Source of the DNA: a virus
Strand: one strand, 5' to 3'
IMG/VR virus record: IMGVR_UViG_3300020129_000089
Span: 1-28,936 of that record
Length of the DNA stretch: 28,936 nt
Position 1 is the stretch's first letter. Each line of letters starts with the position of its first letter. Position numbers and translations under genes: made by a program. A model generated the notes under the pieces. That model was given only the letters and a program-made list of their open reading frames with translations. It had not been told where the DNA came from and did no database searches. Below, one piece after another: positions 1,697 to 28,936 of the stretch.

Positions 1697-3087
1697 AGGG
1701 AACCGGAGAGGGCTATAACTGGTGGTGGCGCAAATGGCAATCCGCCAAGGAGGGCTGGCCTGAGAAACGCTCCCGCCTGCGCCCCAACTTTCTACCCTGG
1801 TTCACCGGAACCGACCTTTACCCTACCCCGGCTTGGCTCCGTGCCCACCCCATCCCCGATCCCTATCTACCTGATCCCCGCATCATCGAGAACGCCCGCA
1901 AAGCCGCCGAATATGTGGAAGCCAGCGACCTCCTGCGCAAGCACATGGGGACTGGCTGGCGGATGAACCGGGAACAGCAATGGTTCTACGAGGTGGAGTA
2001 TTTCCAGGCCAAGCGCGAAGACCGCCTGCACACCTTCCTGCAAGAAATGCCCGCCAACGATGACGAGGCATTCCAGACTTCCAACTACTCGGTCTTTGAA
2101 ACCGACGTGATCAACGACCACCAGAACCGGGTGCGCAACCCGGTGGGGGTCTACGGCCTGATCGGGCCACCGGACGCAGTTCCCTACCGCCTGCAACCCC
2201 ATGCATCCCTCATCGACGCTTCCCGCCCCATCATCCCCATAACCTGCTCCTGGAACCCGATGCGCCCGATCTCGTACCAACTCGTTCCCATCCGCTGGGA
2301 CGGCTATTCCACCGATTCCGGCCTGGACAAAATCTATCTCTGGGAGCACCCGCAACCCGGCGAGACATACGGCCTGGGCGTGGACACCAGTTACGGCGTG
2401 GGCAAGGACCGCACCACCATCGAGATCATGCGCAAGGGCAACTCCTACCGCCCCGCCGCCCAGGTGGGCGAGTTCTCTAGCGACAAGATCAACGCCATGG
2501 ACGCCACCCCCTTCTGCATGGCGCTGGGCACCTATTTCTCGGTCCCCACCATCAACAAGGAGGACGCCGATATCAACGGCATCAGCAGCCCCGACTTCAC
2601 CCCCCAGTGCCGGGTGGCGATTGAATGCAAGGGCAACGGCGACCAGACCCAGCTACAGATGCGCTTCCGGGGCTGGAGCAACTTCCACCGCTGGCAGCGC
2701 ATCGACAACAAGAAACTCGACCCCTCCCAGTTCAACAAGATCGGCGTCTACACCAATGAGTGGTTCCGCGCCGGGTTGATGGAGTGGATGATCAAAATGC
2801 TGCGCGATAACGAGTTAGAGATTGCTTCCCCCTACTTCATCTGGGAGATGCGCAAACTTGAATCCACTATGGAGAGGCAGAGGATTGCCGCCGCCGTTGG
2901 GGCGCATGATGACCGCTTCATGAGCATGGGCTTCATTATCGTATCTCTCTACCAGTGGGAGCGTGACCGCCCAGTCTCCTTGTCCCGTCCCCGCCCTGTA
3001 GCCCCTACATCCGCGCCCCGCTCCTACCGCGCCCTGCCGCGCAACATCCAGGAGTTGCCGTATGGAATCGAAGAACGATTGGGATGA
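1609..3087 (+). CDS. terL: Terminase large subunit, C-terminal part with nuclease domain (frame-disrupted)
   Basis: Continuation of the packaging motor in the next frame, 492 residues from the first ATG. It begins with the Walker B/coupling region (EMAEFDHAESIVDASLL) and then carries the RNase H-like nuclease: GVDTSYGVGKDRTTIEI with the first acidic residue near position 259, VAIECKGNG near 335, and HDDRFMS near 433, which fit the three acidic clusters of terminase nucleases. The ATG at 1609 has no properly spaced ribosome site (GGAG touches the ATG), so it is probably not a real start; the original gene would run 929-3087, about 719 residues, a normal length. The end overlaps the next gene by 26 bases. 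Both dispersed palindromes occur in its last 280 bases. Confidence 0.88.
   Translation: MAEFDHAESIVDASLLRAMHDHPRTMLVLEGTGEGYNWWWRKWQSAKEGWPEKRSRLRPNFLPWFTGTDLYPTPAWLRAHPIPDPYLPDPRIIENARKAAEYVEASDLLRKHMGTGWRMNREQQWFYEVEYFQAKREDRLHTFLQEMPANDDEAFQTSNYSVFETDVINDHQNRVRNPVGVYGLIGPPDAVPYRLQPHASLIDASRPIIPITCSWNPMRPISYQLVPIRWDGYSTDSGLDKIYLWEHPQPGETYGLGVDTSYGVGKDRTTIEIMRKGNSYRPAAQVGEFSSDKINAMDATPFCMALGTYFSVPTINKEDADINGISSPDFTPQCRVAIECKGNGDQTQLQMRFRGWSNFHRWQRIDNKKLDPSQFNKIGVYTNEWFRAGLMEWMIKMLRDNELEIASPYFIWEMRKLESTMERQRIAAAVGAHDDRFMSMGFIIVSLYQWERDRPVSLSRPRPVAPTSAPRSYRALPRNIQELPYGIEERLG
2808..2817. repeat. Dispersed palindrome TAAC-GA-GTTA
   Basis: Exact TAAC-N2-GTTA copy within the large terminase gene; it supplies a TTA leucine codon (Asn-Glu-Leu). 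Confidence 0.7.
2997..3009. repeat. Dispersed palindrome TGTAG-CCC-CTACA
   Basis: Exact TGTAG-N3-CTACA copy near the end of the large terminase gene, read as Val-Ala-Pro-Thr; it lies 179 bases beyond the previous palindrome of the other type. Confidence 0.8.
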
Positions 3088-3292
3088 AAAGGTCTTCCAG
3101 CATGACCGCATCCACTCCAGCGCCTATTCCCCCTCCCGCCGCACGCTTATCGTGCGCTTCGGACAAGGGAGAACCGAATACGAGTACCAAGTGCCGCCGG
3201 AAGTGTGGGACCAGTTCAAGGACAACCCGCACCCGCACTCGTTCATCCGGACCAAAATCCAGCCGAATTTCTTTGGGAGAAAAGTAGAATGA
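3062..3292 (+). CDS. KTSC-domain protein
   Basis: A 76-residue protein. The segment SSAYSPSRRTLIVRFGQG followed by Y-x-Y-x-VP and ending in a K-x-x-PNF-type tail matches the KTSC domain layout (S-x(n)-L-x-V-x-F-x-x-G-x-x-Y-x-Y-x-x-VP). KTSC proteins are short, widespread in bacteria and phages, and without a settled biochemical role. The gene starts inside the 3' end of the terminase frame (26-base overlap) and ends in an ATGA overlap with the next gene, so translation is probably coupled to both. In phages such proteins often sit near packaging genes, as here, but a structural role is not established. Confidence 0.75.
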   Translation: MESKNDWDEKVFQHDRIHSSAYSPSRRTLIVRFGQGRTEYEYQVPPEVWDQFKDNPHPHSFIRTKIQPNFFGRKVE

Positions 3293-3846
3293 GCACCATC
3301 TGCAATCACTGCGGCGGCGAGATCGAGTTTGGCATGTTTCCCTTCTGCCCGCACGGCTACGCTCTGGGCCGCGAACCCCGCCAGTTCCAGCCCATCGTGG
3401 TGCATCGCAAAATCATGCCCGATGGCCAGTACTGCTACGAATACCCCGGCCAGTCCGATGACCCCATCCCTGCCGGGTACGAGAAGGTGGAACTCTCCAC
3501 CCTGGCCCAGGCAGACCGCTTTGTGAAGGACCGCCAAGGGGAAGAGCAGGAACTTCGCCGTATGGCGATCCAGGGGGAAAGAGCATACTGGAATGAGCGT
3601 GTGCAAGAGCGGCGGGTGAAGGCGAGGGAGGAGTTACAGCGGCGTCTCGGCAAGAGCCATTCCTTGATCGGGGACCGCGTTGCCGCTCTCATCGACGCCC
3701 GCCGCGAGAAGAAGTTTCAGGATCTGGAGCGCAAGAGCGTCAACTTCCACAACCAAGCCCTCTCCTACGATTCCCGCAACCGCCCGGAGTATCACGAGGA
3801 AGGCAAGCGGAAAATTTCTGTGGTGGTGAACCGCTCTGACCGATAA
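3289..3846 (+). CDS. Hypothetical protein with N-terminal Cys/His metal-binding motif
   Basis: Start chosen at the ATG that overlaps the preceding stop (ATGA), preceded by GGGAGA at 3274-3279; 185 residues. The N-terminus has C5-x2-C8-x11-C20-x-H22, which could bind one zinc. A central region is followed by a long charged helical segment (about residues 75-155, rich in Arg, Glu, Lys, Gln) that could form a coiled coil. Small proteins of this kind between terminase and portal occur in several phages but I cannot name a function. The stop codon TAA (3844-3846) is the first half of a dispersed palindrome. Confidence 0.7.
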   Translation: MSTICNHCGGEIEFGMFPFCPHGYALGREPRQFQPIVVHRKIMPDGQYCYEYPGQSDDPIPAGYEKVELSTLAQADRFVKDRQGEEQELRRMAIQGERAYWNERVQERRVKAREELQRRLGKSHSLIGDRVAALIDARREKKFQDLERKSVNFHNQALSYDSRNRPEYHEEGKRKISVVVNRSDR

Positions 3847-3853
3847 CCTGTTA
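3844..3853. repeat. Dispersed palindrome TAAC-CT-GTTA
   Basis: Fills almost the whole 11-base gap before the portal gene: its first three bases are the upstream stop codon and it ends 4 bases before the portal ATG, where a Shine-Dalgarno sequence would be expected and none is seen. Confidence 0.75.
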
Positions 3854-3857
3854 CCTG

Positions 3858-5978
3858 ATGGATGCAAACTACTACCTGTGCCCCGCGCCCTTCGCCAATG
3901 CTCATACCAAGGCAGGCAATGCTGACTCGTATCTCGGCTGGGCCAAGGAGTGCATCCAGCAGGGCAACACCTACCTTCGTCTCCAGCCCGCATTCCCCTT
4001 CATCCAAGAGGGGCTGGACCTGATCAACGGCGATCTGCACAAGACCAAGGTGCAAACCCTCAGTGACGCCAAGACCGACCTAGTAGTCCGCAACATCAAG
4101 GAGCTTGTCGCTTCCATCTCCAACGTCCGGATCATCCCCTCTTTCAAAGCCGAAGCATCGGAATTCCAGGACGCCGGAACGCTCCTCAACAAAACCTACA
4201 TCGCTTGGCAGACCATGACCTTTTCCGACCGCTCGATCCGCCGGGGCTGGCAGTACGCCCTATCCGGCGGCACCGGGTACCTGGGCATCCGCTGGGAGCC
4301 TAACCACTGGTCGAAGGGCAAGGGCGAGATCATCATGGACTCCTACGGCCCCCACGATGTCCTCCCCGTGGGCCTGCCGCGCTCCCACGATCTCCAGAAA
4401 GCCTACTGCGTGGCCGTTAAAGTCGAAACTCCCTGGCATGAGGTAGTCCGCCGCTATCCCCAATACCGCGACCTGATCCGTCCCTCCCGCGAGAACTCCA
4501 AGGGAAGGGCCGGGACCGTGGTTGCCCAAGCCGTCAAATTCGCGTCTGCGGCTTTGCGCAAGTTCGGCCCCGGCTCGACCCTGGACAACGAAGCGGCCCC
4601 GTGGCCCATGTGCGACGTGTACAACCTCTACATTGACGATGACTCAGTCAACAACACGGGCCAGCCCATCCTCATGGGGGAACCGGGCACCAGTTGGGAA
4701 TACCTCGTGCCCTACATCGGCCAAGAGATCGTCCAGGCCCGCGACCCGATGACGGGCAAGCCCACCAGGATCTCTAAAGCCCTTCCCGCCGATTGCCTGC
4801 TTTACCCCAACCGCCGCAAGATCGTCTGCACCGACGATGTCGTTCTCACCCCCGACCCGACCCGCCAAGTCAACGAGTACTGGCATGGGCAAGTCCCTGT
4901 GGTGCAGCTTAGAGGGGATGACTGGCCATGGGGCTTCCTCGGCTTCCCCCTCACCCGGTGCGGCTCCTACCTGGAAAAGGCCAATATCGAGTTATTGCGC
5001 GGCATGGTGGACATGATGAATAACCGCCTGTCCCCCTCCCGTGCTTATGACCGCAATACCATGTCCCAAGCCCTCGCCCAGACGATCAACACGCGCATCC
5101 CTAACCAAGTCGTGGGCCTGGACTTCACCCTCGCCGGGGAACAGATGCGCCCGCTGCTTCCTCCTGAATACCTCAACGTCCCCCAGGTGATCCCCGAAGT
5201 GATGCAGCAGAATGAGCAACGCCTCACCCACCAGATGGGTGTAGTCGATGCCCAAGCCCTGGCCCGCGCCCGTCAACTACCATCCGGTGACTCGTTAGAG
5301 CATCTGATGGACCTGATGGGACCGCTGATCAAAGACCAGTCCCGCAACATGGAATTCTCGGTGACCCAGTTCGGCGGCATGTGGAAGTATTGCGTGTTCC
5401 AGTTCTATACCGCCAGCCGCATGATGGAGATGCACGGCCCCCAAGGTGTCCTGGAGGAAACCTTCCAGTTCCGCCCCGGCGACCTCCTCCCCGGCGAGAT
5501 CCCCGGCACCACCCCGGAAACCCCGCAGCATGAACGCGCCAAGCGCCACGCTTCCAACTTCGTCTTTTCCATCGCGCCCTACTCGCTCCACGAACTCAAC
5601 TCGATCTCGCGCAAGCTCTTCCACCTCCAACTCACGCGCTCCGGGTTCCCCATCGACTGGTGGACCCTTGCAGACGTGTTCGATCTGCGCAACTTCGGCA
5701 AGCCGCCCATGATCGATGACCCCGACGAACCCGGCACCAAGCGCGAGGCCAACACCATCTTTGAGAAGTGGCTGGCCCAGCAGGAAATCATGGCCCGCTT
5801 CCAGGCCGCGCAACAGCCCCCACCGGGCGCAGGCGGCGGTGCTCCCGCTACTCCCGGTCCAGGCGGCAGCGTAGCCAATCCGCACAAGCCCATGGGACGC
5901 CCGCCATCCGGTCAAAACCCCCCGGCCATGGAGGTAAAATCGGACGGTAGACCTATCATCCGGGAGAGCAAGCGATGA
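3858..5978 (+). CDS. Portal protein
   Basis: Encodes 706 residues, in the length range of podovirus portals. The portal forms the dodecameric ring at one capsid vertex through which the terminase pumps DNA. Supporting features: position between terminase and scaffold/capsid genes; an N-terminal region with a conserved-looking stretch RNIKELVASISNVRI near residue 80; a WQYALSGGTGYLGI segment near 130 that resembles the 'second half of wing' signature of P22-like/Gp1-type portals; long helical C-terminal half; and a final 60 residues that are Gly/Pro/Ala-rich and probably disordered. The start at 3858 lacks a visible ribosome site, being immediately preceded by a palindrome; the second ATG nearby (3862) is out of frame. 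It overlaps the next gene by 4 bases. Confidence 0.85.
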   Translation: MDANYYLCPAPFANAHTKAGNADSYLGWAKECIQQGNTYLRLQPAFPFIQEGLDLINGDLHKTKVQTLSDAKTDLVVRNIKELVASISNVRIIPSFKAEASEFQDAGTLLNKTYIAWQTMTFSDRSIRRGWQYALSGGTGYLGIRWEPNHWSKGKGEIIMDSYGPHDVLPVGLPRSHDLQKAYCVAVKVETPWHEVVRRYPQYRDLIRPSRENSKGRAGTVVAQAVKFASAALRKFGPGSTLDNEAAPWPMCDVYNLYIDDDSVNNTGQPILMGEPGTSWEYLVPYIGQEIVQARDPMTGKPTRISKALPADCLLYPNRRKIVCTDDVVLTPDPTRQVNEYWHGQVPVVQLRGDDWPWGFLGFPLTRCGSYLEKANIELLRGMVDMMNNRLSPSRAYDRNTMSQALAQTINTRIPNQVVGLDFTLAGEQMRPLLPPEYLNVPQVIPEVMQQNEQRLTHQMGVVDAQALARARQLPSGDSLEHLMDLMGPLIKDQSRNMEFSVTQFGGMWKYCVFQFYTASRMMEMHGPQGVLEETFQFRPGDLLPGEIPGTTPETPQHERAKRHASNFVFSIAPYSLHELNSISRKLFHLQLTRSGFPIDWWTLADVFDLRNFGKPPMIDDPDEPGTKREANTIFEKWLAQQEIMARFQAAQQPPPGAGGGAPATPGPGGSVANPHKPMGRPPSGQNPPAMEVKSDGRPIIRESKR

Positions 5979-6127: not shown

Positions 6128-6315
6128 TGCCTATTGACCCCAATGACCCGGTAGGCTCGGAGATGCGCAAGTTCAAATCCGGCTCCCTGCACTCAGGCTC
6201 CCCTTCCGGCCCCATCGTCCGTAACCGCCGCCAAGCCATCGCCATCGGCCTGTCCGAAAAACGCGCCCTGGCCAAGACCCCCAGGCCCAAGCGAGGCGGC
6301 AATGGCAAACGGTAA
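6127..6315 (+). CDS. Small basic phage protein resembling DUF6496
   Basis: Encodes 62 residues. The pattern M-x-K-F-K-x-G-x-LHSGS-x-x-GP-x-V-x-x-R-x-QAIAIGLSE is characteristic of a short phage-borne family (I believe DUF6496) in which a 'G-x-L-H-S-G' segment is followed by 'R-x-QAIAIALSE' and a basic tail. The role is unknown; the strongly basic C-terminus (KTPRPKRGGNGKR) suggests nucleic-acid contact. GGAGG at 6115-6119 lies 7 bases before the ATG. It overlaps the previous gene by one base and the next by 14. Confidence 0.72.
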   Translation: MPIDPNDPVGSEMRKFKSGSLHSGSPSGPIVRNRRQAIAIGLSEKRALAKTPRPKRGGNGKR

Positions 6316-6529
6316 CCGATCCCTGGTTGTGGTGGAGTCCCTCCCCGCCCCGCGTAGAGTCTACACGGAGGTGGAGATCTACTCCCACCACTCCCTGCTG
6401 GATCTGCTACTCCTCATCCTCTCTGAGAAACGCACAGGCTCCCTGACCATAAATTTCGCTGGCGGAAAGCCGGATGGAACGGCAGAATGGAAACGTCATA
6501 TGCGCCAACCGCCAAACATCGAGGCTTAA
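6302..6529 (+). CDS. Small hypothetical protein (75 aa)
   Basis: Starts inside the previous gene and stops two bases before the next ATG. The second half, with LLLLILSEKRTGSLTINFAG followed by G-x-x-x-G-x-x-EWKRHMR, has the layout of short DUF2292-like proteins (helix, then a two-strand unit '-GS-V/L-T-I-x-F/V-x-x-G-' and a 'tE/W-k-x-x-R' end). That resemblance is from memory and weak. Only a GAGG (6293-6296) serves as ribosome site. It carries a near-exact dispersed palindrome at 6353-6365. Confidence 0.6.
   Translation: MANGNRSLVVVESLPAPRRVYTEVEIYSHHSLLDLLLLILSEKRTGSLTINFAGGKPDGTAEWKRHMRQPPNIEA
6353..6365. repeat. Dispersed palindrome cGTAG-AGT-CTACa (one outer mismatch)
   Basis: GTAGAGTCTAC (6354-6364) is an exact 11-base palindrome; only the outermost T is C. 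Read in frame as Arg-Arg-Val-Tyr-Thr, a different frame from the Val-x-x-Thr copies elsewhere. Confidence 0.65.
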
Positions 6530-6530
6530 C

Positions 6531-6857
6531 ATGTTTCCGCAAACCTCCAGCTATCGCACGCAGACCGTCGTGCTGACAACGATCAACACGCCCTATTCCC
6601 TTGCCGCTCTTTTGCTGGCCATTGATCCCAAGTTTCCTCTGGCAGGGCGGGAAGTGACCCTCTCTGTGGATAAGTTCGTTCCCGGAACCATACTATTCGG
6701 TGAAAGCAACCTCTCCAGCACCAATTGCGGCTATGCCCTCACCGAACTCTCTCCCCCGCGCACCTACCGCAGCGACAAATCCGACATCCCGCTGGGCATG
6801 ATCTGGGTCATGGGATCAGCCGCCCTGATGATCGTGAATGTCGAAGTTGTCCAGTAA
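6531..6857 (+). CDS. Small putative virion protein (108 aa)
   Basis: The ATG at 6531 follows GAGG at 6521-6524; a longer in-frame start at 6474 would overlap the previous gene by 56 bases and is less likely. The 108 residues are hydrophobic and beta-rich, with TTINTPYSLAALLLAIDPKF near the start, then V-T-L-S-V-D-K, G-T-I-L-F-G-E-S, a R-T-Y-R-S-D-K-S-D-I-P-L-G segment and a beta-strand end MIVNVEVVQ. This resembles small phage proteins with a single jelly-roll or beta-sandwich domain found near head genes. No function can be named. It is the last gene before a promoter/terminator gap. Confidence 0.65.
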   Translation: MFPQTSSYRTQTVVLTTINTPYSLAALLLAIDPKFPLAGREVTLSVDKFVPGTILFGESNLSSTNCGYALTELSPPRTYRSDKSDIPLGMIWVMGSAALMIVNVEVVQ

Positions 6858-6871
6858 CGCGAAAATTCTTC

Positions 6872-6899: not shown

Positions 6900-6905
6900 C
6901 TGCAT

Positions 6906-7023: not shown

Positions 7024-7054
7024 ATTGGGGGTAGCCGGAATCGAAGGAGCACTG

Positions 7055-7402
7055 ATGGGATCGTTAAACACGCCTTCCCCTGGCCCAGGAGGAGGAGGAG
7101 ACTTCGGCCCCAGCCAGTTGGCTGGCCCCCCCGCTTCGGGACAAGATGGCCAGCCAGCCCAGCCTAACCAGGACATGTCCGGGTTACCGGGCAACAATAT
7201 GGATTCCCAAGGGAATGCCCTGGCTGTGGTAGTCGAACAAGTCCGTGGGATGGAGCAGGGTCTTTTGTCCCTCTCCCAGCAGTTCCCCGCCGCCAATAAC
7301 GAAGTGCGTCAGGCGGTGGATGCGATCAGGGCGGTGCTTCAGCGCATCGTATCGTCACCCCCGGCGGGGGCGGAGCCACCCTCTCCACAATCCCTGGCCT
7401 AG
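7055..7402 (+). CDS. Gly/Pro-rich small protein with C-terminal helix (115 aa)
   Basis: ATG at 7055 chosen because AAGGAG (7044-7049) is 5 bases upstream; a TTG start at 7025 would place the beginning inside the terminator. Residues 1-50 are rich in Gly, Pro, Ser and Gln and probably disordered. Residues about 55-98 (LAVVVEQVRGMEQGLLSLSQ and onward) form a likely amphipathic helix or coiled coil. The tail is Pro-rich. It precedes the scaffold gene, so a role in head assembly is possible, but I know no family. Confidence 0.65.
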   Translation: MGSLNTPSPGPGGGGDFGPSQLAGPPASGQDGQPAQPNQDMSGLPGNNMDSQGNALAVVVEQVRGMEQGLLSLSQQFPAANNEVRQAVDAIRAVLQRIVSSPPAGAEPPSPQSLA

Positions 7403-7412
7403 CAGTATTCGA

Positions 7413-7422
7413 TAACCCGTTA
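7413..7422. repeat. Dispersed palindrome TAAC-CC-GTTA
   Basis: Intergenic, in the 49-base gap before the scaffold gene, 13 bases upstream of its ribosome site (AAAGGA, 7435-7440). Confidence 0.75.
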
Positions 7423-8453: not shown

Positions 8454-9596
8454 ATGGCCGATCCGATCCTTGATGAAATCAACATAACGACTCTCCCGGA
8501 GATTAACGATAGCGCCATCGAGGACAACTTCTTCCTCGGCAGCGTTCTCCAAGCGCACCTCCGGGCGAAATGCTTAGTCCCCTTCACCGGGGGCGCATTC
8601 AGCCGCAACGCCTTCTTGTACAACCCGCTCAACGGGTCCGCGTACCAGAAGGGCGTGGGCGGATTCAACCTCACCAAGCCGCAGACCCTCGGTGCCACGG
8701 TGTTCGATCCGCGCTACTACTGCGTGATGGTGATCGAGTACCTGGAGGATTTGGATGTCCTCAACACAGGCGATCTGAGCGTCTTCTCGCTCCTCGAAAC
8801 TGACGTAGCAAACGCCTACCAGACCATCTCCGCCATCATGGCCCTCGATCTCCAGCAGAGCGGCCAGTCCGGGGTCCGCGCCGGGACCAACATGAACGGC
8901 TGGGTCGAAGCCTTCAACGACGGCATCGTCCCCGGCTGGGATGGCGTCATCTATAACACCTACGGCACCGCTGCTCGTAACGGCGCAGTCCGCAAGGCAT
9001 TAAACGGTAACGTGTTCTGGTGCGGAGACTCCAACGGCAACGCCGGAACCATCTCCTACCCGGTCCTCAACGCCGCCTATAACCTCTGCCGTCGTGGCAA
9101 GGAAGAGCCTGACCTGATCGTAGGCAACAAGCCCGTGATCAGCTTCATCGAGAATCGCATCCAACCGATGCAACGCTTCGGCCAGGAAGCCGCCTCAACC
9201 CGTGACCCGTACTTTGGTGCCACCGGGTTCCGCTTCAAGAATGCCATCGTGATGCAGGACGATTACATGCCGTCCGCCAAGGGCTACCCCTACTCCGATC
9301 CGTCCAACGGCGGGCTGGGCAACAACCAGACGGGCACCTTCGTCTCCCCGGCCTCGGCCACTAACCCCAACAACTTCCCCAACGGCAAGACCTGCACGGT
9401 GGGTGAGGTTCTGTTGATCATCAACACCTCCCGGTTGCGGTTCCGCATTTCCAACAGCAAGGAATTCGGCTTTAACCCGACCGACTTTATCCGCACCCCG
9501 GACACCACCCGTGTGGCTTCGCAACTCAAAGCCGCCGTGAACCTGGAGTGTACGGCCCCGTGGACAAGCTGTCAGATGCTTGGGATCAACGGCTAA
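8454..9596 (+). CDS. Major capsid protein
   Basis: Encodes 380 residues with a good ribosome site (AGGAG, 8443-8447). Position after the scaffold, length and composition fit an HK97-fold coat protein. The C-terminal half has the 'D-L-I-V-x-N-K-x-V' strand near residue 223, an N-R-x-QPMQRF segment, then D-P-Y-F-G-A-T-G-F-R-F near 250, a pattern I recognise from podovirus-type coat proteins. There is no N-terminal delta domain to suggest proteolytic maturation, and no prohead protease gene nearby, consistent with the separate scaffold. It should be the most abundant virion protein. It is followed at 34 bases by the decoration-type gene. Confidence 0.85.
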   Translation: MADPILDEINITTLPEINDSAIEDNFFLGSVLQAHLRAKCLVPFTGGAFSRNAFLYNPLNGSAYQKGVGGFNLTKPQTLGATVFDPRYYCVMVIEYLEDLDVLNTGDLSVFSLLETDVANAYQTISAIMALDLQQSGQSGVRAGTNMNGWVEAFNDGIVPGWDGVIYNTYGTAARNGAVRKALNGNVFWCGDSNGNAGTISYPVLNAAYNLCRRGKEEPDLIVGNKPVISFIENRIQPMQRFGQEAASTRDPYFGATGFRFKNAIVMQDDYMPSAKGYPYSDPSNGGLGNNQTGTFVSPASATNPNNFPNGKTCTVGEVLLIINTSRLRFRISNSKEFGFNPTDFIRTPDTTRVASQLKAAVNLECTAPWTSCQMLGING

Positions 9597-9629: not shown

Positions 9630-10250
9630 ATGAGCCATGAACTCGGTGGAAACCAAGCCCCTCGCATCACTCAGCTTTACCTCAACAACGTCAACGACCC
9701 GGCTGCGGGCCAGTTGCTCTCGTCCCCTTCCGGCTCCATTGTCCAGCCCTACGGTGGACAGGTTGGCGGCAAGCTCACCCTCTCCGTCAAGGAAGCCAAG
9801 CAACTCTCCGACCCCAACACGGGCACGCTCTACGGCGGCGTCTATCAGTATGTCCAGTTTCTCGCGACCTCTACTGCCAGCACGAATCGCGGCCAGATGA
9901 TGTTCTGGTTTGATCGTGACAACTTCATCGTCACTCCCGATGTGAACGTAGCCACCGCCAGCAAGATGGCTGGCATCGCTATCAACATCGTGGGCAAGGG
10001 CAACTACGGCTTCATCCAGGTTGGCGGCAAGGCTGGCGTCAGGATGCGTCTTGCCTTGACCAAGGCGGCGTTGGACGGCGATCTGGTGGTTCTCGACGGC
10101 ACCCCCGGTCCTTTCGGGGATGTTCTTGCGGATGCCACCGCCTTGACCTCTCCCCTCGCCAAGACGATCATTGGCGTGGCGGATACGCCGCCGACCAACA
10201 ACACGGTGTCCCCGGTGTTCCTCAACTTCATCGGTGGGTGGGCGTACTAA
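9630..10250 (+). CDS. Putative capsid decoration / head structural protein
   Basis: Encodes 206 residues; AAAGGAG at 9614-9620 is optimally placed. It sits immediately after the coat gene. The sequence is beta-rich, with GQMMFWFDRDNFIVTPDV near residue 90, then a compact G-K-G-N-Y-G-F-I-Q-V-G-G-K-A segment near 130 that resembles the decoration domain found in capsid-stabilising proteins of DUF2190 type, and it ends in hydrophobic aromatic residues. Likely a virion protein on the outer capsid surface. The assignment is from position plus pattern; sequence identity to a named family cannot be checked here. Confidence 0.65.
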   Translation: MSHELGGNQAPRITQLYLNNVNDPAAGQLLSSPSGSIVQPYGGQVGGKLTLSVKEAKQLSDPNTGTLYGGVYQYVQFLATSTASTNRGQMMFWFDRDNFIVTPDVNVATASKMAGIAINIVGKGNYGFIQVGGKAGVRMRLALTKAALDGDLVVLDGTPGPFGDVLADATALTSPLAKTIIGVADTPPTNNTVSPVFLNFIGGWAY

Positions 10251-10259
10251 CCAGTTGGC

Positions 10260-10672: not shown

Positions 10673-11680
10673 ATGGCTTTCCGCGATTACTGCTCCGAAC
10701 TCGTTGGAACCATCCCTAACCTGCCCTATCCCCTCGCCCAGACCCTGGTGAACCGCGCCTGGAAGGATCTGCGCGACCTCCGCCTGTGGTCCTGGCTGGT
10801 GGACACCGATGACATCGTAACCCCCATGGTGATCAACGCCGGGACGGTTACCGTGTTCAACGGCTCCTTCACCGTGGCCTGTGACGCCACTGCCAGCGCG
10901 GCCCTCATGCCTTACATCTTCGGCAACCCCCCTCTGGCTTCCACTGTTCTCGGCCAAGGGCGGCAGATCCGCATCGGCCTGACCAGTTCATCCGGCCCCA
11001 TCTTCAACATCGTGGGCGTGGACGCTACCGACCCCACCGCCCTCACGCTGGTGATTGACCGCCAGTACGCCAACGACAGCATCCTAAACGCGCCTTACCA
11101 AGTCTACCGATGCTATATCGCTCCTCCGGGAGACGATTTCCTGCAATACATCACCATCACTCACGTCCGCGCCGGGTACAACATCCGGGCCAAGAAGCTC
11201 TTCTACACGCAACACAGGCTCAACTCCATCGATCCGCAGCGGGGAGCACACGGCGATGCCTATGTGGTTTCCGCTTTCAAGAGCGACAGAGACGGGCGAC
11301 CAGTGCATGAATGGTACCCTCATCCCACCAACTTCGGGGTATACTCCGCCGTCTACCGAAAGCGCGGGAAGGATCTTTCGGGCACTACCGACCTCCCGGT
11401 GACCTTTCCCAACTCCGTGCTGATGGCCCGGTCCTACCAGCACGCGGCGGACTGGGCAATCGCCAACGTGGGGCGCTATCCGCAACTCGGCCAGACCAAC
11501 TGGGCCATGTTCCGCGAAGCCAAAGGCAGTCTCCTCAAGGAAGAGCTAGTCCAGGCCATCAAACAGGACGATGAGATCTCGCCGCTTCTCCCGATGCTCC
11601 AGGGATCTTACTCGGACTTCCCGCTGGGCGGCGAGTTTATGCAGGGGCACGATGTAAGCTCCCTGCTCGGAGGTTTGTAA
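10673..11680 (+). CDS. Putative head-tail adaptor protein
   Basis: Encodes 335 residues with AGGAG 7 bases upstream. The N-terminus (Y-C-S-E-L-V-G-T-I-P-N-L-P-Y-x-L-A-x-x-L-V-N-R-A-W-x-D-L) is a helical pair of the kind seen in connector proteins that clamp below the portal (gp4/gp11-like role in podoviruses). The middle (about 60-240) is beta-rich, and the C-terminal third is helical again and ends in a Gly-rich tail. The position between head genes and fibres supports a neck role. The family is not securely identified. It overlaps the next ATG by one base (TAATG). Confidence 0.55.
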   Translation: MAFRDYCSELVGTIPNLPYPLAQTLVNRAWKDLRDLRLWSWLVDTDDIVTPMVINAGTVTVFNGSFTVACDATASAALMPYIFGNPPLASTVLGQGRQIRIGLTSSSGPIFNIVGVDATDPTALTLVIDRQYANDSILNAPYQVYRCYIAPPGDDFLQYITITHVRAGYNIRAKKLFYTQHRLNSIDPQRGAHGDAYVVSAFKSDRDGRPVHEWYPHPTNFGVYSAVYRKRGKDLSGTTDLPVTFPNSVLMARSYQHAADWAIANVGRYPQLGQTNWAMFREAKGSLLKEELVQAIKQDDEISPLLPMLQGSYSDFPLGGEFMQGHDVSSLLGGL

Positions 11681-11991: not shown

Positions 11992-12001
11992 TAACTGGTT
12001 A
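11992..12001. repeat. Dispersed palindrome TAAC-TG-GTTA
   Basis: Intergenic, 12 bases upstream of the AAAGGAG ribosome site (12014-12020) of the next small gene. Weak flanking arms (ACCCG / CGGGT) would put the palindrome in a loop in RNA. Confidence 0.75.
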
Positions 12002-13562: not shown

Positions 13563-16500
13563 TGAAGCGGTGTAGATTCTACATCCTGCTTTGGGCGCAG
13601 GCGGCAATCTTCGGCCAAACCCCACCCAATACCCAAGCCATCGCTCCTGCCTCGATGAGCTTCTATTCCTATTCCCCGGTGGCTCCAGCCGTGGCCCCGC
13701 CGGGAAGCCAGTTCCTGATCACCTTCCCCGGACAAGCGTCGGGTTCGCAGATCACCCGCCCCGGATGCACCAACTACTCGCAGTTGAAATATGCCCACTA
13801 TACGTATGACGGTACGTGGCATGGCCCCGTCACGGGTCCGGTGTATGGGTACTTCGCCAACTTCTACGCTTCCGCCAACCCGATTAACAACACCTCCGGG
13901 TTGAGCGGCAACATGGCCTTTGCCGGGTCCATCGCATCCAACAACGACACCATCAACCAAGTCTTCATTCAGTCCTACTACTGGAGCGCGGACGCCTGCT
14001 ATGAGTATGGCCCTGAAGTCGGCTTCTACCGTCTCCTCCAAACGCCAGGGAACGCCGCCGAAGAGAGCACGGTGTACTTCTACTACTCGATGCACGCCAA
14101 CTGCTATGGGGATTCCACCGCCGGAACCTGCCGCGACAAGGTCACCGGGGCATCGCTCCAGCCAACCACCATCTCTAAAGCCCTCACCGTCCCAGCCACC
14201 AACTCGCAGGGCGGCAAGAACTGGATCTACAGCGCCTATCTCACCAGCCCCACCAACTTCCGGGTCACCATTACCGACCCCTACAACGGCAATAACGCCG
14301 TCACGCCCGCCAACTATGCGGTAGACCCCAACGGCTTCTTCGGCCCCACCGCCGCCGCCATGTACAATCCTGGCCTAACTGGTTACCTGACCATCACCCA
14401 GCAGCGCAATTCTTCCCTTGGAGGGATCACTGATTCCATGCCTAATCCCCTGAAGATGACCATCATCGGGTTATCCCAGTTGCTGTATCTCAGCACGGTG
14501 ACCCCACCCCCGGTGTTCTCTCAAACCAAGACCTACTCCCGCGCATTCGGCAACTGCGCGGACGGCAACAAGACTATCGTTACCGCTGGCGTGTCCTCCT
14601 CCGCCGCCACGCCCGTGATCCGCTCCTATCCCTCCTGCACGGTCACGGTGTATGTGCCTGGGACCACCACCCCGGCCACGATCTACTCCGATCCCACGGG
14701 CACGTCCAAGGCCAACCCGTTCACCGCCGACACCAGCGGGCGCTGGTTCTTCTACGCCAATAACGGCTCCTACGATATCCGGCTATCCGGCGGCGGCATC
14801 CCCACCCCCTTCACGCTGGGAGATGTCCCGTTGTTCACCACGGGTGCTTACTTCCCTCACGCGGTCCTGGCCTATGCGCAAAGCGGAGCGGCGGGGATTG
14901 TGGGGGCATACAACCCGGCAGGGACGTTCTACTCCTGGTTCACCACGGGCGTGACTACCAGCAACATGCTCTGGACCCTGCCCACCGCCGATAGCGCGGG
15001 GTGCTTGTCCTCCAATGGCTCCTTCGTTCTCAGCTTCGTCCCCTGTGGAACCAGCGGGGGTGGAGGAGGGACCGGGACACCCACTCCCCCCGGCGGGAAC
15101 AACCAGACCATCCAGTTCAACAACGGCGGGGTCTTCGGAGGGGACGGTAACCTGTTATGGGATAAACTCACCCAGGTGATGTCGGTGTCCGGGGTGGCTG
15201 GCACTCCCGCGATCCGCGCCAACGGCGGCTATATTCTCGCCAACGGCGGTCTGGTCAGCAATGTGGGGAGTTGGCAGGGGATCAACTCCGACAAGGACGG
15301 CGCACTCCTGCGTGCATACCATGTAGCCCCTACATCAACGGTTGTTGGCACTGGTAAAGGCGGCTACATCAACTTCGCCCCGCTGGGGTACGCCAATTCC
15401 CCGGTTCCACTGGACGGGCTGGCTAGCTTCGGGCTGCACACCGGGCTGCTTTGGGTAGGTGGGATCAATCCCCTGCCCGCCGATACCACCTACTCGCTGA
15501 ACACTAATCTGTATGTCAACGCCTCTGCCGGGTTCGCTACCGCCAATGGCATCTATAACTCGGTCCAGGCTCCCAATGGCGGGATGGCGGCAAGGAGCTT
15601 CACGGCGTCCGGGTATGTCCAGGTGGGTTCTTCCAACGGCCCTCCCACCGCCACCACCAATGACGCGATCCACGCCGGGGCGCTCTACTTCGACACGGCG
15701 GCGGGCACGTTCCAGGGCTATACCGGAGCGGGCTGGGTGCCTTTATCCGGCGGCGGAACCGGAGGAGGGGGAGGAACCACGCCCCCAGGCGGAGTCAGCA
15801 CCAGCGTGCAGTTTAATTCCGGCGGGAGCTTCAGCGGGGACACCTTCTTCTTTTACTCCAGCGCCTCGCGCCTGCTCACGGTCAGTGCTCTCAATGCCAA
15901 TAGCGCCGGGATTGCCGTAGTGAACGGCTACATGACGGCGGACAACGGCTATCTGAGCGGAGCCTGTATCCGCTACAACTGCTTCCAGGCCGCATCGTCC
16001 GTCACCGGGTCGCTGGTGGGCGGCATGGCTGCGCGTTCCTTCACGGCTACCCAGTACATCCAGGCCGGGAATAACCCTGGCCCTCCCAACACCAGCCTCT
16101 CGGACACCTTCCATGCCGGGGCCATGTTCTGGGACACCACGGGTGCCGGGGGCATGAAGGTCTACGACGGATCGGCCTGGGTGGCTCTGGGCGGGTCCGG
16201 GACGGCGACGGCGGGAGGTCCGGTAACCAGTGTCCAGTTTAATTCTGGCGGAGCACTAGGTGGGGATGCCTCGTTCTTCTGGGACACCGGGGCCAAGCTA
16301 CTCACCATCGTAACCGCCGCCGACGTGAACCCAGGTCTGGCGGTTGGGCCGGGATACATGCAGGCGGATGGCGGCTATATCAGCGGGAGTTGCAACAGGT
16401 ACAACTGCTTCCAGGCGGTGAATTCCCTTAACCAGTTACAGGGTGGAATGTACGCGAAATCCTTTACCGCTCTGAACTACATCCAGGCTGGCAATTACGC

Positions 16501-18590: not shown

Positions 18591-21500
18591 ATGCAACGCC
18601 CTCCCTTCAAATTCATCTGCAAGGGCATCTCCCTCGCCAACCCGGTGGATCTCATGCCGCCGGGGTTCTACCCGGTCCTGATGAACGTCCGGGTGAATGC
18701 CAATGGCGAGATCGACTGCCGCCAAGGCGTGGAGCAGATCCTCAAGACAGGAGGGGGGACTCCGGTACACTCGCTGCGCCGGATGAACAACAGTGTAGAC
18801 TCTACATCGATCCGGCTTTCGGGAACGGGCGGTGACTTGTTTCTGGATAATTCGGTGGTTGACTCGGGGTATTCGGGCAACCCGCTCTCCATCCTGCCCT
18901 TCCGCCCTAACCGCTCCCCTTCCCCCTACGCCTACATCGGGGACGCCAACCGGATGCGCAAGATCGACATGGCCGGGAATGCCTGGGGGGTTGGGATACT
19001 TCCCTGCCCCACTGCCCCGGTGGTGGAGTTGGACGCGCCCAATTTCGAGTTTGTCGATCTGCTCAATAACTCGTTAAGCTGGACTCCCTCCGGTACCGCC
19101 GCTGCCCCGACCAGCGAAAGCCGTCTGGCTACCACCATCGCCCAGATCCTGTTTGACCGGGGCACCAACCGCTGGGCCTGCGTGGTCCCGGACTCGGCGG
19201 ACTTCAACCTCCAGGTGGGGACGTGGGTGAAGGTCAACCCGGTATCGGACGTGGGCGGCGAGGATGCGATTGTGGCGGAGGTGCATAGGCCCATTACGGA
19301 CACCATCGTCCAAGGTATTCTCTACGAGGAGGGAGACACCGGGTACTGCTCCATCGTGCTCAAGGACTCCTCCCCCAACCTCGCGCCCAATTCCGTGATC
19401 ACCGTGGGAGGAGAATACGTCCGGGTAATCGATGTCTATCAGGGCCAGCGTGGGGCCAGCATCCGCTGCTTCACCCTGCTGCACCATCTCAACGGGGAGC
19501 TAATCAAGGGCACCACCAGCTTCCGCGCCTTCCTCACCCTGCCGCATAGCGCCGGGGATAATTTGACCGCTGAGAGCCTGAAGTTCACCGCAGGACTGGG
19601 CATCGGCATGATTGCCAAGCCCGTGACCCTCAAGCTGGATGTGATCACGCCCTACGTAGAAGCCGGAATTGGGGGCCGTCCGCTTGACAAGGATGACTAC
19701 ATCCACATTTCCATGAAGCTGGACAACCCCACCAACCTGCTTGAGGCGCGAGTTGTTTTTGATATCGGGGACGGCTCCTTCCTCCACGACTACTACTACA
19801 AGATCTTCTCTGCCGCCGACCTGCAAGTGACCACCGACATCATCACTGATGACACCGAAAGCGCCCAGGCGAGATGGACGGAATTGAAATTCAAAGTCAG
19901 TGAATTAATTCGTGCTGGTTCAGATAAAACCAAGTCGTTTGCAACGGTTGCCGCCATCGGAATCTACATCAACGCCCTGGCTCCCATCGAGGCTACCGTG
20001 AGCAGTTGGTGGGTGGGCGGGACGTTTGGGCTGGACTCGACGCCTGCCGATGCCCCTGTGCAGTACGCCACAAGGTACCGGGACTCCCGCACCGGGGCCA
20101 GAAGCAACCCCTCCCCCGCCACGCGCACCGGGGTTGTGCCTCAACGTGACCAAGCAGTCATCAAGGTACTGGCGTCCGATGATCCCCAGGTGGACAACAT
20201 TGACCTGTTGCGCTTCGGCGGCGGGCTGAACGTGTGGGTGGTGGTTGGGGCACATCCCAATATTGACCAGACCATCCAAGACTCCCTCCCTACCCTCTAC
20301 ATCCAGTCCAACGAGGTGGTGGAGTTCGACAATTACCCGCCCTTCCCGATCTCCGATCTGCCACATAACTCGTCAGGGGATGTTTGCGGGACCATCGTGC
20401 AGTGGACCGGAGGGGACAAGTTCGATACCCGCTGGGTGCCGGGGAGCGTGGTCTTTGTCGATGGGGTGGCGTGTACGCTCTATGGTTCCCCGCCCTCCGA
20501 TACCATGCTCAACCTGGAGCAATCGGCGGGCAGTGGGACGGATCTGCCGTTGCAGTTACCGGAGCCTACGCTTGCCGGGGTTCCCCTCCCGGCGATGTGG
20601 CAGTTCGGCGGGCAGGGCATAGGGACGTTTATGTTCGGGGTAGGAGATCCCTACAATCCCGGATTTCTAAGATGGACGAAGGGCAACGACCCGGACGCCG
20701 CCAGCGACAAGGGCAACCTGGAGGTCACCTCGCCGTCTGAACCCCTCATGAATGGCTGCGAGTATGACGGCAGGGCGTTTGTCTTCTCCACGGAGCGGCT
20801 GTTCGCGCTCTTCCCCAACTTCGCTGCGGCCACACCCGGCACCAACCAGTTCACCGCCAGCGTGGTGGTGAGTAGCGCAGGGCTGTATTCCAGGTTTGCG
20901 TTCTGCGTGACCCCGTTCGGTATCGCCTGGGTGGGCAAGGATGGGATTTATCTATTCAGCGGAAGCCCCACGCCCAAGAACCTGACCAATGACACCCTCT
21001 ACCCGCTGTTCCTCCATGGAGGGGTGGACTCGATCCCGGTCAACGGCTACTACCCGGTGGACTACGCCAAGGCGCTGCGCCTGTCCTTTGCCGATAACAG
21101 CCTGTTCTTCACCTACACCGACACCCAAGGCACCGTCTGTTGCCTGCGCTTCGACTTCTCGCTGGCGGGCTGGTTCCCTTACTCCTACACTCCCGCCGCC
21201 AGCGTCTTCTACCAGGAGGAAGGCGACCATGTCAACTCGGCGCTGATGGGCGCGGTAGACGGGAATGTGTATCAGTTCGACCGCACCAGGGTGGATCACT
21301 CCGCCTTCTTCGGCCCGGTGGTGATCGCCTGCCATCTGCGCACCTCCTCCCAGGATCTGGGGGATTCCAGGGGCATGAAGTACTTCATCGATACGCTTGT
21401 AGACTCTACAGGAACCTACACCGCCACCCACGGGTTTGATAATCATTCCATAACTGGTGCCCCGATAGTTATCCAGTCGATCACGCGCACCCAGCATATC

Positions 21501-25128: not shown

Positions 25129-25142
25129 CAGGAGAACAAACG

Positions 25143-25436: not shown

Positions 25437-25445
25437 AGGATGCCT

Positions 25446-25820
25446 ATGCGAATCTCTCTAGATCATCAGCAACGCCTGAACTTAATCGCCCTGATTGGCA
25501 CGCAGCGCGGCACGGTAGCGGACATCCGGACGCTCTGGAAGCTCCAGGACCGGATGGAGTTGAGCGAGGAGGAGAAGCGGGAGATCAACTATCAGGTGAT
25601 TGCCCAGGATGGAGCGGAAGCAGTCCGCTGGGATCTGGGCAAGAGCCTGCCGCCCGTGGAGGTGGAGCTTTCTACCGCTGAATCCCAGCGCCTGCGCAAG
25701 ATCGTGGAGGAGTACCCCAATTTCCAGCTTGGCGACAGGAAATGGATCGAGTCTTTGCTTGACCAGTTAGAGGTTGAATCCCCCGCCCCCACGGAAATGG
25801 TTGCACAAAAGCACGGCTGA
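25446..25820 (+). CDS. Conserved small phage protein (124 aa)
   Basis: ATG at 25446 preferred because AAAGGA (25435-25440) lies 5 bases upstream; the in-frame ATG at 25440 overlaps that site and adds two residues. The sequence is charged and helical, with the pattern L-I-G-T-Q-R-G-T-V-A-D-I-R-T-L-W-x-L-x-D then E-E-K-R-E-I-N-Y and a C-terminal L-R-K-I-V-E-E-Y-P-N-F helix. It resembles proteins I recall from several environmental podovirus-like phages beside the 97-residue neighbour. No function known; no transmembrane segment. Confidence 0.68.
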   Translation: MRISLDHQQRLNLIALIGTQRGTVADIRTLWKLQDRMELSEEEKREINYQVIAQDGAEAVRWDLGKSLPPVEVELSTAESQRLRKIVEEYPNFQLGDRKWIESLLDQLEVESPAPTEMVAQKHG

Positions 25821-25843
25821 GTAGGACTATCAATCGAGAAGGT

Positions 25844-25853
25844 TAACCAGTTA
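25844..25853. repeat. Dispersed palindrome TAAC-CA-GTTA
   Basis: Its final A is the first base of the next gene's ATG (25853), so binding would occlude the start codon and half of the space from the ribosome site GAGAAGG (25836-25842). Confidence 0.8.
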
Positions 25854-26611
25854 TGGATGAATGGACCCGGAACCAGATCGCGGGCACGGGGATTGGGATG
25901 GCGGTGGGCGGTCCCATCGGTGCCCTTGCCGGGTGGGGGATCAGCAGGGCTTTGCCGCATACAGACCCCAGCAGTTTCACGGGCGGTGGTGGTACCTACA
26001 CGCCTGGGGGGCTGGCACCGGAAGGGATAGGCGGCACCCAGGACTCCCTCACCCAGGCCACCCGTGCCCTATCCAATTACACGGGACAAGCAGGCCAGGA
26101 CTTGCTCAAGCGCGGCAGTGCCGTGACGGAATTGGGGCTGGACCGGGAAAAGGCCGGGGAAGACCAGATGGCCCCGGTCATGGACTACTTCCGCAAGCTG
26201 ATGAGTGGGGACAGGTCAGAGGTTGCCAGTGCGATGCAGCCTGAGACAGACCAGATTGCCAATCAGTTCGGCCAGATCCGGCAGATGTTCAGCCAGACTG
26301 GATCGAGAGGTGGCGGGTCCACGTCTACTATGGCGGCGTCTCCTTATGAGCAGACCCGGCAGACGGCGGAGTTGACTGCTAAAGCCCGTAGAGGGGCGGC
26401 GGAACCGCTGGGTACATTGGCGACGGAGAAGGCCAAGCTGGGACTGGGCACGGCTGGGATCGGGTTGACCCAGGAGGGAGTGGGGAGTGGATTAGAGGGG
26501 TTGACGCAACAGACCCTGATGGCGCGGAGGGGGCAGAACATGACTGCCGATACGGCCAACAGGCAGATGGTTGCGCAGGGACTGAACAACGTGTTTACGC
26601 AGTTGGTGTAG
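25853..26611 (+). CDS. Putative internal virion protein with glycine-zipper segment (252 aa)
   Basis: Residues about 9-32 (IAGTGIGMAVGGPIGALAGW) form a glycine-zipper hydrophobic segment that could cross a membrane. The rest is Gln/Gly/Thr-rich and helical, with repeated Gln-Thr and Gly-Leu-rich stretches in the C-terminal half. In podoviruses small proteins that precede a very large one and carry a membrane-active segment are ejected into the cell envelope to form a DNA channel; position and composition agree with that role. No direct homology is claimed. Its stop codon (TAG, 26609-26611) lies inside a dispersed palindrome. Confidence 0.6.
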   Translation: MDEWTRNQIAGTGIGMAVGGPIGALAGWGISRALPHTDPSSFTGGGGTYTPGGLAPEGIGGTQDSLTQATRALSNYTGQAGQDLLKRGSAVTELGLDREKAGEDQMAPVMDYFRKLMSGDRSEVASAMQPETDQIANQFGQIRQMFSQTGSRGGGSTSTMAASPYEQTRQTAELTAKARRGAAEPLGTLATEKAKLGLGTAGIGLTQEGVGSGLEGLTQQTLMARRGQNMTADTANRQMVAQGLNNVFTQLV

Positions 26612-26619
26612 AGCCTACA
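26607..26619. repeat. Dispersed palindrome TGTAG-AGC-CTACA
   Basis: Contains the stop codon of the upstream gene; the ribosome site of the next gene (GAGGAG, 26621-26626) begins two bases after it. Confidence 0.82.
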
Positions 26620-26632
26620 CGAGGAGCAAGCC

Positions 26633-28936
26633 ATGGGAATGTTAAGGGATCTGATTGAGCGCAGGCACACGGACCAGCGGGACCAGATGTTCCGCCAGTA
26701 CGATACCTACAAGGGCATCCTCATGGACCCCCGTGGCGTGGAAGCGGGCGGGTTTAGCGACGAGCAGAAGAAGGATGCGTTGGACCGGATGGTGGATATG
26801 GCATCGCCGTCCAAGCAGCACGCTCAGGCGGTTAAGCCTGTGTTCCAGCATTTGCTGGGGCTGGCGGGTAAGGTTGCACTGGGTGGTGGTGGTGGTGGGA
26901 GTCAAGCCCCAAGGCAACCCATGGGTCCGCCGGAAGCAAGAGCGCCGATGGGTCCGCCCCAGGCTCCGGTGGGTCCGGGAGCGTTGGCGGTGAATGCCGA
27001 TGGTTCACCTAATGCCGGGGCTGTAGCTCCCACTACCACGGGTTCGGTGAGCGGGGATACCACCGCCGCCGCTGCTCCTGCCGCTCCGACTGGAGACGAT
27101 GCAGGAGCGTTTGTACCTCAGTCCGGGCCTGCCGCTATGCCCACCGCGCAGCCCCAATACCAGCCCGTGGAGTCCAGGGTTGATCCTGCCTCGGTCTACA
27201 ACCTCCCCGGCATTACGCCGCCCCACCCCGGCCCACCCGGCACGGAAGGCACGGCGCAGTTCTCCCCGCAGACATTGGTGGACGGGTACAGCCCAGAACA
27301 GGAGGGTCAGGGCTTTCAGCCCTCCTTTCGGGGGGTACAAGGGGTGGGGAGGGCAGAACTGGGGTCAAAAGCTGATGTAGAGCCTACACCGACCCCTGCT
27401 ACCAAAGCGGTGGCGAAGGTTGCGCAGGCTCCCACTCCCACACCTACAGCTACACCAGCGCCAGCAGCAGCAGCGGCGGCTCCGGGAAGGACGGACGGCA
27501 GGACTGGCATACGCGCATTCCCCACCTTTGATGAGCGGCTGCAACGCGCCAGAGCCATCGCGGAGTTCAACGTCAAGATGGAGGGGGAGAGGATGGTGGG
27601 GCTGTTGCCTTACCAGCAACAGGTTGCCAAGGCCCAGATCATGGCGCAGGTGCAACGCTACGAGCAAATACTGACGGAGCATCCCGATATTGGTCCTGCC
27701 TATGCCGCTGTCGCGGCTGGGTTAAAGGTTCCGTCTGGGGCATTCAACCCACGTGCCGTCAACACCAACCAGATGGTTGAGGATGTAGATGCGGCTGGCA
27801 ACAAGACATACGCGATCAACACCACAACCGGGGCGCATGTTCCCGTCAAGGGCACCCCCGTAGTCAAGCCAACCGCCAAGACCGTATCCACGACGGAGGA
27901 AGCCCGGAACGATCAACTGGCGTCCTACGCCGATGAGCTTAACGCGGAGCACCAGGGCGACCCTAACTGGAAACCGCTTACCAAGGAAACTCTCACGGCT
28001 ACCCAGCGGGTGGATGCCGTCCGCCGCGCAGCGGGGCAACTGAAACAGATCTCAGACGCCCTCAAGGACGCCCACCCGGACTGGACCCCGGCGCAGATCC
28101 GCAAAGCAGCGGGGGACCAGATCATCAAGAACCAAGCACAGAGTAACAAGTTAGGGAGCCTGAAGATCGATGTAATGGGCAACACTCTCTCCACCGCCCA
28201 AAACAAAGTCAAGGACGCGCAGAGTGTGGCCGAAGGGATCATGGCGGGCAATGACATCCCCACCCTGACGGGCCTATCCAGGGATCAGGCTGGACAGGTG
28301 AGGGCGATTCTGGACCGCAATAAATACGACTTCGTCAATGCCAGCAAGGACTGGGAGACGATGAAGTCTCACATCCGCACCATGAACGGCCCCGCCATCC
28401 AGAAACAGGTGCAGGCGATCAAGACCGTGGAGGGAACCATTCCACTGGTGCGGCAGGCATACGCGGACTGGCAGAACAGCGCCTTGCCCAGCGGGTACTC
28501 GGACTACAACAAGGCCGCGCTCAATGCCGCCGCGAGACTGGAAGGGCAGGCTGGCGTGGCGGCGAGGGAATTGATTCGCCAAGTGGGCGACTTCTCGGCG
28601 GAGTTGGGCAGTGTGTACATGCAAGGTAACTCCAACACCGATCACTCCCTCGATCTCGCCAAGCAGAATCTGGCGGCGGAGTGGAACGCGGAGCAGTTTG
28701 AAACCGCCTTGCAGAACGTGGAGAAGTTTACCAACATCCGCTTGAATTCCATTTTTCATTCCGGCGTGGTGCAGCCTGGGCAGAACAGATATGACCGGGA
28801 GTGGGCGTTGGACCCCTCGGTTATGGCCCAGAAAGGATCGGATGGAAGGCCAGCGGGAGCGGGGGCAGGAGGGGGAGCTACCAAGCCGCAAGGGGAAAGC
28901 ATTGGCGGTAAGAGCATGGGAGGATACCAGTACACG
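26633..28936 (+). CDS. Large putative internal/ejection protein, partial at window end
   Basis: From the ATG at 26633, preceded by GAGGAG, the frame stays open for 768 codons to the window edge. Order: helical N-terminus (about 1-75), a run of six glycines (nt 26882-26899), a Pro/Ala/Gly/Thr-rich low-complexity region (about 90-290) with an alanine run, then a long, mainly helical charged region (about 300-720) ending in a Gly-rich stretch. There is no catalytic motif or transmembrane segment that I can see. Size and place after the glycine-zipper gene fit the giant internal proteins of podoviruses that are ejected to form a trans-envelope DNA channel. Inferred, not proven. Confidence 0.65.
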   Translation, partial: MGMLRDLIERRHTDQRDQMFRQYDTYKGILMDPRGVEAGGFSDEQKKDALDRMVDMASPSKQHAQAVKPVFQHLLGLAGKVALGGGGGGSQAPRQPMGPPEARAPMGPPQAPVGPGALAVNADGSPNAGAVAPTTTGSVSGDTTAAAAPAAPTGDDAGAFVPQSGPAAMPTAQPQYQPVESRVDPASVYNLPGITPPHPGPPGTEGTAQFSPQTLVDGYSPEQEGQGFQPSFRGVQGVGRAELGSKADVEPTPTPATKAVAKVAQAPTPTPTATPAPAAAAAAPGRTDGRTGIRAFPTFDERLQRARAIAEFNVKMEGERMVGLLPYQQQVAKAQIMAQVQRYEQILTEHPDIGPAYAAVAAGLKVPSGAFNPRAVNTNQMVEDVDAAGNKTYAINTTTGAHVPVKGTPVVKPTAKTVSTTEEARNDQLASYADELNAEHQGDPNWKPLTKETLTATQRVDAVRRAAGQLKQISDALKDAHPDWTPAQIRKAAGDQIIKNQAQSNKLGSLKIDVMGNTLSTAQNKVKDAQSVAEGIMAGNDIPTLTGLSRDQAGQVRAILDRNKYDFVNASKDWETMKSHIRTMNGPAIQKQVQAIKTVEGTIPLVRQAYADWQNSALPSGYSDYNKAALNAAARLEGQAGVAARELIRQVGDFSAELGSVYMQGNSNTDHSLDLAKQNLAAEWNAEQFETALQNVEKFTNIRLNSIFHSGVVQPGQNRYDREWALDPSVMAQKGSDGRPAGAGAGGGATKPQGESIGGKSMGGYQYT
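27300..27326. repeat. GC-rich nested hairpin inside the internal-protein gene
   Basis: AGGAGGG (27300-27306) and CCCTCCT (27320-27326) are exact inverted repeats, and AGGGCT-TTC-AGCCCT (27309-27323) is an alternative perfect hairpin in between, followed by CTTTCGGGGGG. Coding is uninterrupted. Arms like these resemble small interspersed REP-type elements. Confidence 0.5.
27376..27388. repeat. Dispersed palindrome TGTAG-AGC-CTACA
   Basis: Same centre (AGC) as the copy at 26607; read Val-Glu-Pro-Thr within the low-complexity region of the internal protein. Confidence 0.75.
28144..28153. repeat. Dispersed palindrome TAAC-AA-GTTA
   Basis: In the helical region of the internal protein (Ser-Asn-Lys-Leu) and using a TTA leucine codon. 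Confidence 0.65.

Follow-up and report, generated by a model that had tools for sequence, protein, structure and literature searches.

The nearest published case to the element described here is the dispersed 17-bp palindrome TGTTCGG-N3-CCGAACA of Corndog and the Cluster O mycobacteriophages, which is present in 34 copies in Corndog and whose function is unknown; many copies are intergenic, about a third lie inside genes, and the phages encode a ParB-like protein (PMC4351075). Our element, TAAC-N2-GTTA, is likewise a perfect gapped palindrome, dispersed over the 28,936 bases of IMG/VR virus record IMGVR_UViG_3300020129_000089 (the whole of which we call the window), with four exact copies in intergenic DNA or on a stop codon and six in coding sequence. 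It differs from the Corndog palindrome in sequence and in geometry, which is 7-3-7 there, and in being one of two palindromes in the same phage, whereas the Corndog-type phages have one each. A literature search for TAACNNGTTA together with 'phage' returned no match.

Two other kinds of dispersed phage site bear comparison. Cluster A phages such as L5 carry 20-30 dispersed repressor sites per genome, the stoperators, in short intergenic spaces and elsewhere; these asymmetric sites of 13-14 bp are each read by a monomer and aligned with the direction of transcription, and their specificity shifts between relatives (PMC6550527, PMC9283540). The window resembles those genomes in holding many dispersed copies of one short site (10 exact and 5 near copies in 28.9 kb), but its site has exact dyad symmetry in place of the transcription-oriented asymmetry of a stoperator. 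A stoperator is further bound by the immunity repressor, which blocks elongation. When the scanner that we used on the window was run on the Streptomyces phage phiC31, it recovered 15 dispersed palindromes, five of them in short intergenic gaps of the late region, which we take to be the phiC31 repressor sites. In both phages some late-region copies of a dispersed palindrome sit in short gaps that follow gene stops, although the phiC31 site is longer (core CTACTCACGTGAGTAG) and its late-region copies are intergenic, whereas 6 of 10 are coding here.

The window carries the late genes of a tailed phage (packaging, head and tail), all of them read rightwards. The ten exact copies of TAAC-N2-GTTA listed in an earlier note on this DNA are all present at the coordinates it gave (Table 1), whereas dinucleotide shuffles contain 0.09 copies on average and 1 at most, so that the 0.4 copies expected by that note were too generous to chance. 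A scan for all gapped palindromes with arms of 4-6 and gaps of 0-24 bases yields only two outliers, TGTAG-N3-CTACA (9 copies, log10 P -27) and TAAC-N2-GTTA (10 copies, log10 P -17.4); the palindrome ranked third reaches a log10 P of just -3.7. The enrichment also survives the codon-aware shuffle that the note had named as a possible refutation: exchanging synonymous codons within each gene (5000 runs) gives a mean of 0.063 coding copies and a maximum of 2, against 6 observed. Five coding copies use the leucine codon TTA, which is as rare in the window as had been claimed (29 of 676 leucine codons), and the motif accounts for 5 of these 29.

The arrangement of the two arms is also specific. TAAC followed by GTTA at gaps of 0, 1, 3 or 4 bases does not occur in the window, nor does the inverted arrangement GTTA-N2-TAAC. 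The dyad symmetry is exact, the centre variable and the flanks without conservation, which bears out the earlier description, and the inner core AAC-N2-GTT is itself found 22 times against 6.3 expected. The copies matching at 9 of 10 positions that the note had mentioned do exist, ten one-mismatch copies in all, including those at 9008 and 10248, but its coordinate 20355 should read 20366. Five of the ten differ solely at the last A (23, 92, 6527, 9008 and 10248) and none solely at the first T, a weak one-sidedness.

The sites are concentrated at the ends of genes: 4 of the 10 exact copies fall between positions -10 and +30 relative to a gene stop, a zone that makes up 3% of the window, and with the near copies added the figure is 6 of 15 sites of the form TAACNNGTT. 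Three sites (3844, 6527 and 10248) have a TAA stop codon as their first three bases. Regular spacing of the sites was not significant. Copies that begin on stop codons, together with intergenic copies close behind stops, are what might be expected of an RNA-level signal (terminator, ribosome or processing signal), and we also considered a by-product of codon use, but an explanation of this kind is extremely improbable. A stem of 4 bp closed by a loop of 2 bases does not fold, and codon use is refuted as a cause by the 0.06 copies of the codon-preserving shuffles. A hairpin or terminator was rejected on direct comparison, the ten sites as a set folding no better than shuffles (best z -1.92).

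Relatives were found via the portal, the capsid, the helicase, an AAA-winged-helix protein and ParB, and they are 45-75% identical to the window in the main head and packaging proteins. Their joined records, about 1.63 Mb, contain 8 copies of TAAC-N2-GTTA, at most 2 per record, and a dispersed set was not found in any relative examined. When the missing half of this virus was sought among relatives of the helicase, the AAA-winged-helix protein and ParB, again no contig had more than 2 copies. The earlier note had held that a lack of enrichment in relatives would refute its proposal; they do lack it, which marks the motif as lineage-specific, while the enrichment inside the window stands. At the terminase site the window encodes Asp-Asn-Glu-Leu, where 12 of 13 relatives have Asp/Asn-x-Glu-Val/Ile written in other codons. 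Judged from these sequences this lineage seems to have acquired the set itself, and since the protein sequence changed along with the terminase copy, selection seems to act on the DNA word as such.

The idea that each relative carries its own dispersed motif proved wrong, since the motif of G001 is clustered and that of G007 is a tandem repeat. In G001 (L038-L040) arrays of an asymmetric motif like CTCGGCTTCGTCTC, with a spacing of about 48 bp, occupy 50129-50583, 56478-57149 and 58988-59233; in G007 (L031) a tandem repeat with a unit of 11 bp, TTTGCTTC and three variable bases, lies at the start of the contig (49-226).

The same observations bear on a methylation or restriction recognition motif, which the earlier note had offered as the alternative to a dimeric binding site. 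Many such motifs are palindromes with a fixed gap, as this one is, but the accumulation of copies, the coding change to gain a site and the placement at gene ends are unexpected for a modification motif, and we consider this explanation very improbable. The matching methyltransferase for which the note proposed to look was not found among the window's main proteins in Pfam and PHROGs scans, half of the genome being missing. Among the relatives N6_N4_Mtase, the sole methyltransferase family searched there, occurs in 1 of 23 records (G018, 27028-27867), not in the window.

The other outlier of the scan, TGTAG-N3-CTACA, is one of a family-wide series of 13-bp palindromes, likewise dispersed, in which two arms of six bases flank a single centre base, for most of them C or G. 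Many relatives carry one such palindrome each, of a form such as TGTAGASTCTACA, and the sequence varies from phage to phage, with arms TGTAGA, CGTAGA, TGTAAA, TGTAAT, GTTAGT, TTTAGA and others. There are up to 43 copies per genome, and the spacing is more even than chance in several, including G026 (L237-L240) and G027 (L241-L244), two records of 66-67 kb with 43 and 39 copies of GTTAGTNACTAAC respectively. Many relatives also encode a ParB_N protein, which in G005 matches Spo0J, KorB and Noc in PDB, and its gene usually lies directly downstream of a small XRE gene. The recognition helix of ParB covaries with the palindrome: SRA[TQ] goes with TGTAG(A) in seven records, PASNS[FH]IN with TGTAA[AT] in three, SKATIY with GTTAGT in two, and SVAWV with CGTAGA. 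This covariation is that of the relatives; no ParB of the window's own phage is seen. The small XRE protein was dropped as the reader of the 13-bp palindrome because XRE helices differ among phages with the same palindrome and ParB helices do not.

Taken together, the evidence tips, if modestly, towards TAAC-N2-GTTA being a second set of dispersed operators (stoperators or silencers). Their reader would be a dimeric, phage-encoded regulator, each of whose subunits would contact a single 4-base arm. Occupying sites at gene ends, within late genes and close to the late operon's leader, it would silence the late region or stop transcription through it. Its gene would lie in the early part of the genome, which this contig lacks. 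The dimeric site of the earlier note is favoured by the fixed gap, the dyad, the free centre, the unconserved flanks, selection at the codon level and precedent in the family. Its modification site is not supported: no methyltransferase was found among the window's main proteins, and modification would give the phage no reason to gather copies. That the sites act as operators is suggested by the comparison with phiC31 and by the family itself, in which dispersed operators are habitual; from this we infer dimer binding, a phage-encoded protein and a silencing effect. The set would form a second system beside TGTAG-N3-CTACA, which in relatives goes with an orphan KorB/Spo0J-like ParB next to a small XRE regulator.

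Several observations weigh against such an operator set. Six of the ten exact sites are inside genes, away from promoters; the AT-rich base composition of intergenic DNA favours a motif like this one, itself AT-rich; and no relative shares the motif, so conservation cannot check its function. No helix-turn-helix, winged-helix or other regulator was seen among the window's main proteins (Pfam, PHROGs), the early part being missing, and the earlier note's suggestion of a winged-helix regulator thus found no candidate in a window that holds only the late part. On the question of lysogeny, an integrase domain occurs in only 10 of the 23 records searched. The capsid profile matched no prophage in 84,980 species genomes, and the host search with the helicase profile returned one contig of a metagenome-assembled genome (MAG) only. 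As a separate observation, the match to a phage integrase in G014 (37703-39285) is split in two, and one part contains an in-frame TGA.

The host itself could supply the reader, if the phage had accumulated sites in order to recruit a host-encoded DNA-binding protein such as a nucleoid, segregation or repair factor. Since no relative shares the motif, this phage may live in another host than they do, but neither the prophage nor the MAG searches identified a host, and palindromes that change in step with the phage ParB favour phage-encoded readers; a host factor is therefore quite unlikely.

The operator set may also be compared with plasmid RK2, where the KorB operator (OB) is TTTAGC(c/g)GCTAAA and the core of the KorA operator (OA) is the 10-bp palindrome TTTAGCTAAA (PMC2680271), and where KorB is a sliding clamp that is locked by KorA, OA lying next to core promoters (PMC11790492). 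The 13-bp palindromes of the family share the geometry, and often the G/C centre, of this site for a ParB-type clamp, and they covary with a KorB/Spo0J-like ParB; OA, a palindrome of 10-12 bp for a small helix-turn-helix partner, would be the counterpart of TAAC-N2-GTTA. By this analogy an orphan ParB would load at TGTAG-N3-CTACA and a lock protein at TAAC-N2-GTTA would stop the clamp, coating and silencing the late genes, which would amount to a genome-wide version of the plasmid KorA-KorB system. We regard such a two-site network as unlikely. Its lock could be the product of the small XRE gene that precedes ParB in relatives, or a counterpart in this phage, capturing sliding ParB-CTP (cytidine triphosphate) clamps, and to this we also give a small chance. 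The XRE and ParB genes do adjoin in many relatives, and of 15 records, 6 have the phage's own 13-bp palindrome just upstream of the pair, where 1.2 would be expected (P 5e-4, for a search window picked after looking). However, RK2 is a plasmid with OA at promoters, whereas most TAAC-N2-GTTA copies lie inside genes or at gene ends, and only the near copies at 23 and 92 are in the leader. Moreover, no second dispersed palindrome was seen in the relatives with XRE and ParB, the TAAC sites are no closer to the TGTAG sites than chance (P 0.26), and XRE and ParB of the window's own phage are not seen in the window. A ParABS partition system would have a ParA with its ParB, and ParA of family PF13614, the sole ParA family searched, is absent from 24 of 24 records.

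Dispersed palindromes are known in Corndog without a known reader, and the family context here suggests a ParB/KorB-like protein, so that the function of such palindromes becomes open to direct test. No other phage in the panel adds a second palindrome of its own to the 13-bp series; in the window's phage this would mean either that a switch of immunity specificity has been caught midway or that one silencing network has a further component.

Table 1. Palindrome copies and genes in the window, and XRE-ParB gene pairs, lacking a PF13614 ParA, in relatives that have dispersed palindromes (aa, amino acids; ORF, open reading frame).
Feature	Position	Strand	Context
Exact copy TAACGAGTTA	2808..2817		inside terminase large subunit, codons GAT AAC GAG TTA
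Exact copy TAACCTGTTA	3844..3853		starts on TAA stop codon of ORF 3205-3846
Exact copy TAACCCGTTA	7413..7422		intergenic, 11 bp past stop of ORF 7025-7402
Exact copy TAACTGGTTA	11992..12001		intergenic, 13 bp past stop of ORF 11680-11979
Exact copy TAACTGGTTA	14376..14385		within 1553-aa ORF 13562-18223 (probable tape measure protein)
Exact copy TAACCTGTTA	15148..15157		within ORF 13562-18223, codons GGT AAC CTG TTA
Exact copy TAACCAGTTA	16429..16438		within ORF 13562-18223, codons CTT AAC CAG TTA
Exact copy TAACTCGTTA	19067..19076		within ORF 18591-21974, codons AAT AAC TCG TTA
Exact copy TAACCAGTTA	25844..25853		short gap between ORF 25440-25820 and ORF 25853-26611
Exact copy TAACAAGTTA	28144..28153		within ORF 26633-28936, codons AGT AAC AAG TTA
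One-mismatch copy TAACGTGTTT	23..32		AT-rich leader ahead of first gene
One-mismatch copy TAACTCGTTT	92..101		same AT-rich leader, 69 bp downstream of copy at 23
One-mismatch copy TAACATGTTT	6527..6536		on TAA stop codon of ORF 6302-6529
One-mismatch copy TAACGTGTTC	9008..9017		inside major capsid gene
One-mismatch copy TAACCAGTTG	10248..10257		on TAA stop codon of ORF 9630-10250
TGTAG-N3-CTACA	898..910; further starts 2997, 10649, 13571, 15322, 18794, 21398, 26607, 27376		
CGTAGAGTCTACA	start 6353		listed with the TGTAG-N3-CTACA copies
Terminase large subunit	929..3087	+	two overlapping frames (929-1696, 1609-3087)
Portal protein	3858..5978	+	query for finding relatives
Major capsid protein	8454..9596	+	query for finding relatives
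XRE then KorB/Spo0J-like ParB	L015:16912-18420		G005
XRE then KorB/Spo0J-like ParB	L021:17220-18597		G006
XRE then KorB/Spo0J-like ParB	L237:5915-7483		G026

Homologues of the terminase large subunit are single genes (e.g., 739 aa in G005), and its split in the window may be an assembly error, a frameshift or real. The window also has tail fibre genes. In the leader, ahead of the first gene, the direct repeat TATAGTACAC occurs twice, about 11 bp apart (191-215).

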